Origin: Hyphomicrobiales bacterium
GTDB taxonomy: Bacteria > Pseudomonadota > Alphaproteobacteria > Rhizobiales > Devosiaceae
DNA length: 41,863 nucleotides
Direction: 5' to 3'
Assembly: GCA_015490455.1 (NCBI GenBank)
Contig: WFXU01000015.1
Location: forward strand, 1 to 41,863
Part shown: positions 15,183 to 41,863 of the stretch, one piece after another
Numbering within the stretch: position 1 is the stretch's first letter
How the letters are laid out: each line of letters opens with the position of its first letter
Translations under genes and position numbers: made by a program
Notes under the pieces: model-generated
Database searches by the model: none
What the model was told of the DNA's origin: nothing
The model's input: the letters and a program-made list of their open reading frames with translations, nothing else

Positions 15183-15620
15183 CTAATATTGTTTTTCCAT
15201 TATACATTTAAGTGGATGTTGATCTTTCTTAGCCAAATCCATCACCTGAGTAACTTTTGCTTCAGCAACCTCATAGGGAAAAACACCACATTCTCCCATA
15301 CCGTGATTATGAACCGTCAACATTATCATCACCGCCTCTTCATGTGATTTATGGAATAATTCCTGCAAAATATATACAACAAATTCCATTGGCGTATAAT
15401 CATCATTAAGCAATATTACCTTATAAAGCGAAGGGCGTTTGCTCCTTTGTTTTATCTTTGTGGCAATATCGCTGGCAAAATCCCCTTCTTGCTCTATATT
15501 TTCTATTTTGCCGTTTTTTCCACCCCCTTTGCCCTCCTTGCCCCCCTTATCCCCCTTGCTTCCTTCTTCACGTTGGCATTTAATTTGTGATATTAAAAAG
15601 CTGCTCATTTTTCTTTCCAT
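15183..15620 (-). CDS. clpS: ATP-dependent Clp protease adaptor ClpS
   Basis: Delivers N-degron substrates to ClpA. The core (about residues 62-145) is typical: [20 protein letters not shown] with the Asn-Asp-Asp-Tyr-Thr-Pro loop, the second helix [14 protein letters not shown] and [13 protein letters not shown], including the hydrophobic-pocket residues of the family. At 145 residues it is longer than most ClpS. The extra part is an N-terminal stretch of Gly/Lys/Glu repeats ([20 protein letters not shown], about 18-37), low in complexity and probably disordered. ATG 15608 has GGAAAG at suitable spacing and may be the real start. It sits directly upstream of clpA and is probably co-transcribed. 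Confidence 0.94.
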
Positions 15621-38368: not shown

Positions 38369-39382
38369 ATGAACATTGGAAATATTATTGAAAAATTAGC
38401 GCAAAGACAAAATTTGAGCAAAGAAGAAATGAGCTTTGCTATGAATGAAATTATGAGCAATAAAGCTAGCGCGGTTGAAATATCTGCCCTTTTAATGGGA
38501 CTAAGGGTAAAGGGAGAAACTATTGAAGAGATAGCGGCTGCGGTTGCTGTTCTAAGAGAAAAAATGCTCCCCGTTAAAGCGCCAGAAAATTCTATAGATA
38601 TTGTCGGCACTGGCGGAGATGGAAAGGGAACCCTTAATATTTCAACCGCAAGCGCCATTATAGTTGCAGCATCTGGTGTGCCCGTTGCTAAACATGGCAA
38701 TAGGGCGCTTTCGTCAAAATCCGGTAGCTCCGAAGCCCTACAAGCGCTTGGAGTTAAACTGGATTTAAGCGCAGATGAAATAGCAAATTGTATCAAACAG
38801 GCCAATATTGGTTTTATGTTTGCTCCCAACCACCATCCGGCTATGAAATATGTCGGCCCCATCAGATCGGAACTAGGAATAAGAACAATTTTTAACCTGC
38901 TAGGGCCACAGACAAACCCGGCCAAAGTCAAACATTATCTCTTAGGCGTATATGATAAAAAATGGGTTGAACCAATAGCCCACGCCCTAAAGGAAAATGG
39001 AGCTATTTCAGCTTGGGTAGTGCATGGGAATGATGGACTAGATGAAATAACAACTACAACAACAACTTATGTTTGTCAGCTAAGAAATAATAAAATTACC
39101 TCCCTCACTATCAGTCCAGAAGATGCAGGACTACCTTTCGCCAACCCCAAAGATTTGACCGGTAAAGATCCACAATATAACGCCAACAAACTCTTATCTC
39201 TATTAAAGGGTGAAAAATCTCCCTATCGAGATATTGTGCTGTTTAATGCAGCAGCCAGCTTTATCATTGCAGGCAAGGTTGATAATCTGAAAGATGGAGT
39301 GAAATTAGGGGAAAAAATTATTGACGAAGGACTAGCCAAAAATACATTAGAAAAATTAGTCAAGGTCTCAAATAATGGCTAA
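38369..39382 (+). CDS. trpD: Anthranilate phosphoribosyltransferase
   Basis: Joins anthranilate to phosphoribosyl pyrophosphate. 337 residues. The PRPP and anthranilate sites are marked by DIVGTGGDGKGTLNISTASA, VPVAKHGNRALSSKSGSSEAL, and IRSELGIRTIFNLLGPQTNP. The gene starts right after the trpG stop (38367) and overlaps trpC by 8 bases, so the trp run is tightly coupled. The sequence DGLDEITTTTTTYV contains a run of threonine codons (ACAACTACAACAACAACT), a mild microsatellite. Confidence 0.96.
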   Translation: MNIGNIIEKLAQRQNLSKEEMSFAMNEIMSNKASAVEISALLMGLRVKGETIEEIAAAVAVLREKMLPVKAPENSIDIVGTGGDGKGTLNISTASAIIVAASGVPVAKHGNRALSSKSGSSEALQALGVKLDLSADEIANCIKQANIGFMFAPNHHPAMKYVGPIRSELGIRTIFNLLGPQTNPAKVKHYLLGVYDKKWVEPIAHALKENGAISAWVVHGNDGLDEITTTTTTYVCQLRNNKITSLTISPEDAGLPFANPKDLTGKDPQYNANKLLSLLKGEKSPYRDIVLFNAAASFIIAGKVDNLKDGVKLGEKIIDEGLAKNTLEKLVKVSNNG

Positions 39383-40169
39383 TATTCTTAAAAAAATTAT
39401 TGATTATAAAAAAAATGAGGTTGCAAAAGAAAAAGCGCAACTTACTTTGAACGAAATTGAAGCGCGGGCAAAAAGAGCTGATGAGACGCGTGGATTTGAG
39501 GCGGCTTTGCGCTCAAAAATCAATCAGGGCAATTTTGCTCTAATCGCAGAGATAAAAAAAGCCAGCCCATCTAAGGGGTTAATTCGTAAAAATTTTAACC
39601 CCAACAAAATTGCCAAATCTTATGAAAAGGGCGGCGCCTCTTGCCTTTCTGTTTTGACCGATAAACCTTCTTTTCAGGGAGCACCACAATATTTGATAGA
39701 AGCAAGAAATTCCTGCGCCCTGCCCGTCTTACGTAAAGATTTTATAATAGATAATTACCAAATTGCTCAGGCACGCAGTTGGGGAGCAGATGCTATTTTA
39801 CTCATTATGGCAGTGCTTGATGTGGGTTTAGCCGGCGAATTAGCCAGCTATGCTAATAATGATTTAGGCATGGATATCTTATGCGAAGTGCATACTTATG
39901 AAGAATTAGATAAGGCACTAGCATTAGATTTCACCATGATAGGAATAAATAACCGCAATCTTAAATCATTCACAACCGATTTATCTATCAGCGAAAATCT
40001 TGCCAAAAATATTCCTCCCGATAGAATAATCATTGCCGAAAGCGGGATTAACTCGCATGCTGATTTATTACGTCTAGAAAAATCCAATATTAGATCTTTT
40101 CTGGTCGGAGAAAGCCTTATGCGCCAGGAAAATATTGAAAAAGCAACCAGACAATTATTAAATCCATAG
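39375..40169 (+). CDS. trpC: Indole-3-glycerol phosphate synthase
   Basis: Closes the indole ring of the tryptophan pathway. 264 residues, monofunctional, without a fused TrpF. The barrel motifs are ALIAEIKKASPSKGLI with the catalytic Lys, YEKGGASCLSVLTDKPSFQG, LPVLRKDFIIDNYQ, ADAILLIMAVL, GINNRNLKSF and IIAESGI. trpF, trpB and trpA are not in the window. It ends the run; the next plus-strand gene is lexA. In related genomes I recall moaC and moeA lying between trpC and lexA; they are missing, and a non-coding repetitive region lies there. Confidence 0.96.
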   Translation: MANILKKIIDYKKNEVAKEKAQLTLNEIEARAKRADETRGFEAALRSKINQGNFALIAEIKKASPSKGLIRKNFNPNKIAKSYEKGGASCLSVLTDKPSFQGAPQYLIEARNSCALPVLRKDFIIDNYQIAQARSWGADAILLIMAVLDVGLAGELASYANNDLGMDILCEVHTYEELDKALALDFTMIGINNRNLKSFTTDLSISENLAKNIPPDRIIIAESGINSHADLLRLEKSNIRSFLVGESLMRQENIEKATRQLLNP

Positions 40170-40205
40170 GCTGCTAATTGCTATTTCACAAAATAAATTA
40201 TTTTC

Positions 40206-40251
40206 TTTACAGAACATAACAAGAACCTATATAATGGTTCCGCATATGTTC
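40206..40251 (+). promoter_or_regulatory. SOS-type promoter with two LexA boxes
   Basis: TTTACA (40206-40211), an 18-bp spacer and TATAAT (40230-40235). GAAC-ATAACAA-GAAC (40212-40226) lies between -35 and -10, and GTTC-CGCATAT-GTTC (40237-40251) starts just past the -10 over the predicted start. Both fit the alphaproteobacterial LexA site (GTTC-N7-GTTC on either strand) exactly. LexA bound here would shut the promoter. The downstream gene is lexA, but about 650 bp away. Confidence 0.82.
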
Positions 40252-40256
40252 CGATT

Positions 40257-40608
40257 CGCAGGGGCGCAGGAAGAGGGGGCGAAGTGAGAGGGGGGCAAGG
40301 GGAGATAGAGAATTAAAGCAAGGGGAACGAAGAGAGAGGGGGAGAGCAGGAAGAGGGAGAGCAGGACAAGGGGGGAAGTAGAAGCGAGGGGAGCAGAGCG
40401 GTGGGGCACCGGAGCCAAAAGGGCAACAGAGCAAGAGGGGGAAGTAGAAACGGAGAGGTAGCAGAAGCGAGGGTGGCAAGCAAGAAGGGGCATTAGACGC
40501 GTGTGGTGGATTGAGGGGCAGCTGGCACAAGGGTAGCAAAAGTGGAGAGGCATTAGATGCTAGTAGTGAATTGAGGGGGTAGAGAGGAAACTATATGGGG
40601 GAGCGGAT
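40257..40608 (+). repeat. Polypurine, G-rich repetitive tract
   Basis: From about 40257 to 40480 the plus strand is nearly all G and A with some C: only nine T in 40261-40480. There are many G4-G6 runs. Internal repeats: GCAGGAAGAGGG at 40266 and 40346, GGGGGAAGTAGAA at 40371 and 40437, and a 30-base unit at 40489-40518 repeated at 40549-40578 (25/30 identical, period 60). No gene is credible in it. Confidence 0.8.
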
Positions 40609-40610
40609 GC

Positions 40611-40720
40611 CTAAAGCATGTCTTAACAAAAGTGGGCACCGGTTTCGGGATAAAAGAGTTGGCACAAAACAAAAAGATAAAGCATGTTAAGTGAATGCAA
40701 ATGAACGCAGCATGCTTTAG
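40611..40720. repeat. Rhizobial-type palindromic intergenic repeat
   Basis: CTAAAGCATG (40611-40620) is an exact inverted match to CATGCTTTAG (40711-40720), and TAAAGCATG recurs at 40678-40686. Between them lies AAAGTGGGCACCGGTTTCGG (40628-40647), which resembles a repeat I recall as widespread between genes in Rhizobium/Sinorhizobium-type genomes. Recognition is from memory. Confidence 0.65.
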
Positions 40721-40894
40721 AGGGGCGGTTATGTGAGGTGAATATATGTGAGAGGCAGCTGTGTGGAGAGAAAATATGTGGAAGGGAAAATATGTGAATA
40801 TTGTTCACTTGCAAAATTTGACCAAAACTAAATATCAAATCCCATCCATTATAGATTAAAAAATATGTTATTTTAAGACGCTAAGGAGGCTAAA

Positions 40895-41617
40895 ATGCTA
40901 ACGCGCAAACAATATGAACTTTTAATGTTTATTCACGAAAGGATGAAAGAGAGCGGTATTCCTCCTTCATTTGACGAGATGAAGGATGCTCTTGATTTAC
41001 GCTCCAAATCTGGCATTCATCGTTTAATAACAGCGCTTGAAGAACGTGGCTTTATCAAACGTTTACCAAATCGCGCTCGGGCGCTTGAGATTGTTAAATT
41101 ACCACAAAGAATGAACCCTTCCCTTAGCACTAATCCGGCAACAAAAAGGGCAAAATTTGAGCCCAGTATTATTGAGGGAAGTTTAGGAAAGAATAATGAT
41201 AGCTCATCTTCAGCCAATATTGAAGAAGACAAAAATATAATTTCCGTCCCCATTATGGGAAAAATTGCTGCCGGAACGCCCATTGAGGCAATCCAATATA
41301 ATATTAGCTCGGTTGATGTGCCTGCCGAAATGCTCGGCAAGGGTGAACATTTTGCCCTTGAAGTTAAGGGAGATTCCATGATTGAAGCCGGCATATTTGA
41401 TGGCGATACTGTTATTATTAATAAGCAGCAAACTGCCGCCAATGGCGATATTGTTGTAGCCCTAATTGATGATGAAGAAGCAACCCTTAAAAGATTACGC
41501 AAAAGGGGAAATTCCATTGCACTTGAGGCAGCCAATAGAGCTTACGAAACCAGAATTTTTGGCCCCGATCGGGTGGTGGTGCAAGGCCGGCTAGTCGGAC
41601 TATTACGTAAATATTAG
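40895..41617 (+). CDS. lexA: SOS repressor LexA
   Basis: Represses DNA-damage genes and cleaves itself when RecA filaments form. 240 residues, within the alphaproteobacterial range. The winged helix-turn-helix is at 1-70 ([40 protein letters not shown]). A polar linker follows (about 70-118). The S24 peptidase has the Ala126-Gly127 cleavage site in [11 protein letters not shown], nucleophile Ser161 in [11 protein letters not shown], and Lys199 in EEATLKR. AAGGAGG lies before the ATG, a perfect ribosome-binding site. No canonical LexA box lies within 200 bases; the nearest two are at 40212-40251, so autoregulation may work through a long leader. Confidence 0.97.
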
Positions 41618-41687
41618 ACCAAACACCATATTTACCGAAAAACTAAAAAAGAAAGGAACAAAATAGCTACAAATCAACAAAATTAAA

Positions 41688-41724
41688 CAAAATGGACACC
41701 TCCATCAACCCTGATATTCTGACG
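41688..41724 (-). repeat. Hairpin repeat, copy B (inverted partner of 4989-5026)
   Basis: The reverse complement of 41688-41723 matches 4991-5026 at 33 of 36 bases. In that orientation two of the three differences (A to G, C to T) fall in the stem and keep pairing as G-U in RNA; the 10-base loop is unchanged. It lies about 70 bases after lexA, on the opposite strand. The rest of 41618-41863 shows no gene. Confidence 0.72.
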
Positions 41725-41863
41725 TGTATTAGTTGAGATTTGTTCTGACATTCTTTATAAATTGTAACTGTATGAGAAAGGATGTTAGAGATTAACAATT
41801 ATCAGAAATATCAATATATTAAAAATTCCTTACGACCAACTCGAAAAATATTGGTAACATGCA

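Follow-up and report, generated by a model that had tools for sequence, protein, structure and literature searches.

The LexA box GTTCN7GTTC is tabulated for Caulobacter crescentus in PMC9578287. In LexA-autoregulated lexA promoters of alphaproteobacteria, the operator lies about 20-100 nt 5′ of the start codon. The locus described here resembles these promoters, with exact GTTCN7GTTC boxes over a sigma-70-like promoter directed towards lexA and with a LexA that scores above the equivalog cut-off, whereas its operator lies about 640 nt 5′ of the start codon. It also has two opposed boxes, an arrangement which is the rule in its family. The pair was not seen at 31 loci assigned by record title to other groups (L102-L104, L106-L133), where one exact box is found at -60 to -111, with a second, unpaired box at L116. 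The kind of regulation is known; the geometry is unusual. Among the matches listed for literature on alphaproteobacterial LexA boxes, lexA leaders and the SOS response of Devosia (titles and opening lines of abstracts of open-access papers), a displaced lexA operator is not described, which is weak evidence of absence.

The DNA comes from an uncultured relative of Devosia, with a genome of 2.0 Mb in 81 contigs. The window, that is, the whole stretch of 41,863 bases that was analysed, is one of these contigs (C15). The closest named relatives of its lexA come from an unclassified Hyphomicrobiales MAG and then mostly from Devosia, Maritalea and Pelagibacterium, genera of the family Devosiaceae. 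By comparison across the family, the usual spacing between operator and lexA is about 20 nt in the relatives, versus about 640 nt here.

Results

Two opposed LexA boxes and a promoter upstream of lexA

The gene order in the window is trpE-trpG-trpD-trpC, followed by a gap of 725 nt and lexA. The flanking genes and the operator region are listed below in window coordinates.

39375-40169, plus strand: trpC (NCBIfam NF001370 above cut-off; tblastn synteny)
40206-40211, plus strand: -35-like hexamer TTTACA (consensus scan)
40212-40226, minus strand: LexA box 1, GAACATAACAAGAAC on the plus strand; exact GTTCN7GTTC inside the -35/-10 spacer
40230-40235, plus strand: -10 hexamer TATAAT (consensus scan)
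40237-40251, plus strand: LexA box 2, GTTCCGCATATGTTC; exact GTTCN7GTTC over the expected start point
40252-40258, plus strand: YGATTC(G) directly 3′ of box 2 and conserved in almost every relative examined
40895-41617, plus strand: lexA (TIGR00498, equivalog; 182 bits versus a cut-off of 111)

Boxes 1 and 2, which are in opposite orientation, are the sole exact matches to GTTCN7GTTC on both strands of the window. Shuffled windows held 0.37 exact boxes on average, and two or more were present in 4 of 100 shuffles. TTTACA-18-TATAAT scored 11/12 and was the top of 12 promoter-like sites in 39500-41863 (shuffles, 5.7) in a scan with an E. coli-type sigma-70 consensus, where a match is not the same as activity and a weaker promoter near lexA could be missed. 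The start point would lie near 40242, as placed from the -10 hexamer. The first-pass annotation had described two exact boxes bracketing a sigma-70-like promoter, with one box in the spacer and the other over the start point, about 650 bp 5′ of lexA and with no canonical box near the gene. The motif and promoter scans bear out this description: the end of box 2 is 643 nt from the start of lexA (40895), and no further LexA box with at most one mismatch is present in 40100-41000.

Between 40236 and 40894 the consensus scan detected no other plus-strand sigma-70-like site of at least 9/12. No plus-strand site resembling an intrinsic terminator, the type of transcript end within the scope of the scan, was found in 40242-40894. 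On the opposite strand, a promoter-like site TTAAAA-17-TATAAT (10/12; 40876-40848, minus strand) lies just 5′ of lexA and faces the purine tract described below.

Motif and protein matches suggest that an SOS system is present in this genome. LexA is encoded (TIGR00498, above the equivalog cut-off), an exact box is located in the ssb/uvrA intergenic region, and recA has two overlapping boxes with 7 of 8 positions some 70-95 nt 5′ of its first ATG. The features of an alphaproteobacterial LexA operator found at the locus are the exact motif, its conservation before an SOS gene, its overlap with a promoter (by consensus only) and the presence of LexA in the genome.

The paired operator is conserved across the family

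Exact single boxes are not enriched genome-wide (18, versus 39 for a reversed control pattern), and single-box enrichment was dropped as evidence. Of the 16 exact boxes outside the lexA gap, 12 fall inside mechanically called reading frames of at least 100 aa. The paired pattern GAACN7GAAC-N8-14-GTTCN7GTTC is present in 128 of 136 family genomes, a count that includes G062, which has no lexA match and whose pair differs in sequence and is possibly no operator of lexA. The control pattern was found in none of the 136 and thus the paired arrangement is far above chance. The pair occurs once per genome, except for two places in G072.

Alignment gave 66 distinct operator sequences, the window included, from 78 of 80 loci examined; the other two, L018 and L072, lack the pair and both come from G028. 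Directly before box 1, TTGCR is found in 63 of the 66 sequences and TTTACA in the remaining three, namely the window and its congeners G002 and G003. The gap between the boxes is 9-12 nt, and that of the window equals the gap in its congeners. The TA of the -10 hexamer is invariant in all 46 sequences with a 10-nt gap, again including the window, and no position of the YGATTC after box 2 deviates in more than two of the 66. The window has the expected base at each of the 16 fixed box positions.

The operator is displaced from lexA in the window

The lexA ATG follows the last base of box 2 at a median distance of 22 nt in 93 genomes, which come from among the pair matches listed and are fewer than the 128. 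The distance is 643 nt in the window, and the next largest value is 96 nt (G023). The 92 other measured genomes lie at 19-96 nt after correction of two of them, G091 (224) and G067 (80), whose protein matches start at residues 68 and 21 and whose distances become about 23 and 20 nt; the median was computed on the uncorrected values. Left out of the distances were G062 and G112 (pair, no lexA match), the second G072 pair, which is on another contig, and G028, which has no pair.

In the same genus, box 2 and the ATG are separated by 56, 54 and 22 nt in G001, G004 and G003, respectively. The order trpC-operator-lexA is common to the window, G001 and G004 (tblastn synteny). A comparison of the trpC-lexA gap with that of relatives, which the first-pass annotation had proposed, showed that the long gap is absent from G001 and G004, and that the operator itself is shared. 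Clear similarity to relatives ends at about 40252-40258, just past box 2. The operator is displaced by about 590 bp relative to G001 and G004, and the extra DNA of about 590 bp is absent from G001, G003 and G004, the congeners in which lexA was found. Since the operator block is shared across the family and lies shortly before lexA in the other genomes with a measured distance, a reading of the operator-promoter as the ancestral autoregulatory unit of lexA, with the intervening DNA as a later addition, is strongly favoured by the sequence comparison. In G003 and G002 a reading frame, which by eye we take to be moeA, ends just before the operator. In G002 the operator is present at the end of contig C91 (L169), the contig stops 10 nt past it, and the assembly yielded no lexA.

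A second displaced operator is seen in G028, from another genus of the family, where the second box is lost. A search with the G028 insert gave no second copy in that genome and no match in G000-G004. Displacement of the operator has probably happened more than once in the family, as judged from these two loci.

Purine-rich DNA between the operator and lexA

The added DNA consists of a 350-nt purine tract, a 110-bp dispersed repeat and a further G-rich stretch. The leader is divided as follows.

40260-40610, plus strand: purine tract, untranslated leader DNA (A116 C38 G165 T32; G on the lexA-sense strand)
40611-40720, plus strand: dispersed repeat of 110 bp with 10-nt inverted ends CTAAAGCATG/CATGCTTTAG and two predicted hairpins
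40721-40795, plus strand: second stretch rich in G and poor in C, with short AAAATATGTG repeats
40796-40894, plus strand: AT-rich leader end with the Shine-Dalgarno sequence AAGGAGG at 40883-40889

The polypurine tract and the palindromic repeat that had been noted between the boxes and lexA are both real, as seen from the base composition and from the 110-bp element with inverted ends. In a 325-kb sample of the genome with 15,662 N-free stretches of 340 nt, purine bias peaks in 40260-40610 (0.80; the next is 0.69), which also has the highest G over C skew (0.63) among those with a GC content of at least 0.35. Four shorter purine tracts were found in the sample. By mechanical gene calls, three of these lie within genes or at gene ends, with the purines on the coding strand, and one is at a contig end. 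At L039:2461-2630 (contig C36), a pyrimidine tract lies 5′ of a minus-strand gene and places purines on the sense strand of that gene, by eye presumably a cobU-like candidate. Within the window, the gene at 15183-15620 (minus strand), which we assume by eye to be a candidate clpS, has an N-terminal part encoded by a purine tract and rich in lysine and glycine.

Tandem Repeats Finder (TRF) detected weak periods of 15-16 nt in the added DNA, and purines also prevail in the short leaders of G001 (37/50 nt after GATTC) and G004 (32/48 nt). In view of these periods and of the purine-rich short leaders, a local duplication of the ancestral leader is a plausible source of the tract. None of the three plus-strand frames of the leader is open throughout. 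Two minus-strand open reading frames that overlap the tract (110 and 108 aa) had no NCBIfam match at E 1e-5, appeared by eye to be of low complexity, and were rejected as genes. G-quadruplexes are likewise unsupported: the G3+N1-7 motif is absent, and shuffles of the first 370 nt averaged 0.72. One candidate R-loop-type G cluster lies at 40261-40302. The predicted fold of the whole leader RNA did not surpass 20 shuffles in stability (z -0.16), and Rfam gave nothing above the gathering score in 39300-41863, the one sub-threshold match being in trpC (19.5 bits versus a gathering score of 50).

Windows of 78 nt with C>G, a measure based on the description of rut sites in PMC6407284, make up 45 of 576 (8%) in the leader and are confined to 40771 to 40817. 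An equal or lower share is seen in 509 of 6126 control stretches, and avoidance of Rho by the leader is thus only suggestive.

The dispersed repeat

Copies of the 110-bp repeat are present elsewhere in the genome on C51, C46 and C16 at 90-95%, with a partial copy on C13; these four further places, together with the hairpins and inverted ends, mark the element as dispersed and palindromic. Among the four congeners it was matched in G001 only, and partially. By its description (an intergenic element of about 100 bp, two predicted hairpins and several genomic copies), 40611-40720 resembles the RIME-type repeats of rhizobia. RIME elements are described in PMC2573895 as intergenic repeats of rhizobia with unknown function. 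A diverged relative of the repeat is found at L018:2441-2589, just 3′ of lexA in G028, and matching changes are seen by eye in both of its inverted ends. In the window, DNA 3′ of lexA is also repetitive: 41640-41760 has 18 genome matches including itself, and the multi-copy repeat is placed at 41685-41863. The last 150 nt of the window recur without a mismatch at the end of contig C14, which suggests that the contig probably breaks at a repeat.

Discussion

The results are best explained if lexA is still repressed by LexA from its displaced ancestral promoter, through a mostly untranslated leader of about 650 nt. We give this reading a probability of about 0.78. Predicted binding of LexA to box 1 in the spacer and to box 2 at the start point would block RNA polymerase. 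Upon DNA damage, RecA-promoted self-cleavage of LexA would free the promoter. The transcript, starting near 40242, would then run through the leader of about 650 nt to the strong-looking ribosome-binding site AAGGAGG (40883-40889). The purine tract and the copy of the dispersed repeat, about 590 bp in all, would have accumulated between the start point and lexA in this lineage, and we infer that this extra DNA is largely neutral.

Such a locus offers a natural test of the distance that can separate a self-repressing regulator from its switch. Should the promoter be active, LexA feedback would withstand a leader about 30 times as long as the operator-to-gene spacing usual in the family, and close relatives with short leaders would allow a comparison of when the SOS response is shut off. 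A LexA-box search confined to the few hundred bases 5′ of each gene would overlook lexA itself in this genome.

The first-pass annotation had left a choice between a long lexA leader and a separate damage-induced RNA. The family comparison favours the former, and no positive support was obtained for the latter. A LexA-repressed non-coding RNA, with lexA read from a closer promoter or from the trp operon, would fit the length of the leader and its lack of a frame open throughout. Read-through from trpC meets no visible terminator, a point that counts against the displaced promoter as the source of lexA transcription. But the operator block is that of lexA itself throughout the family, no plus-strand terminator-like site separates it from the gene, and neither the Rfam search nor the fold (z -0.16) indicates a structured RNA. 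The tract is also absent before lexA in G001, G003 and G004, and PMC6237742 reports that the mitomycin-induced sRNAs of Caulobacter lack an SOS box close to their start sites. A separate RNA is therefore unlikely.

It is quite improbable that the operator is a relic, with lexA under another promoter after the insertion and the boxes decaying, although G028 offers an example: box 1 persists there about 515 nt before lexA, and the place of the second box holds only GCTCCACAGGCATCC. There, displacement appears to have been accompanied by decay of the operator, which counts against assuming that the displaced operator of the window must work. In the window no better promoter is visible downstream. 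The 16 exact box positions, the -10 TATAAT and a box gap as in the congeners also speak, if only weakly, against decay. The fragmented assembly in 81 contigs counts against the preferred reading as well, and the surroundings of lexA are repeat-rich, with the end shared with C14 and the 18 matches behind the gene; the G002 contig, too, breaks off just past the operator. Yet an accidental misjoin would not bring back the gene order trpC-operator-lexA seen in G001 and G004, and the longest exact word shared by the gap and the four other repeat loci is 50 nt. An origin of the extra DNA in misassembly is thus very improbable.

Transcription from the displaced promoter could also be shaped by the leader itself. 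As the leader is G-rich on the non-template strand, an R-loop might form behind RNA polymerase at every firing of the SOS promoter, and as it is C-poor, the transcript might escape Rho; together these would, in this lineage, delay or damp the re-synthesis of LexA as the SOS response is switched off. We consider such a role for the leader doubtful.

Outside the loci discussed above, an exact GTTCN7GTTC lies about 22 bp before the first possible start codon of a gene for a reverse transcriptase-Cas1 fusion on contig C59 (L046:2-1486, minus strand), and may be a chance match.
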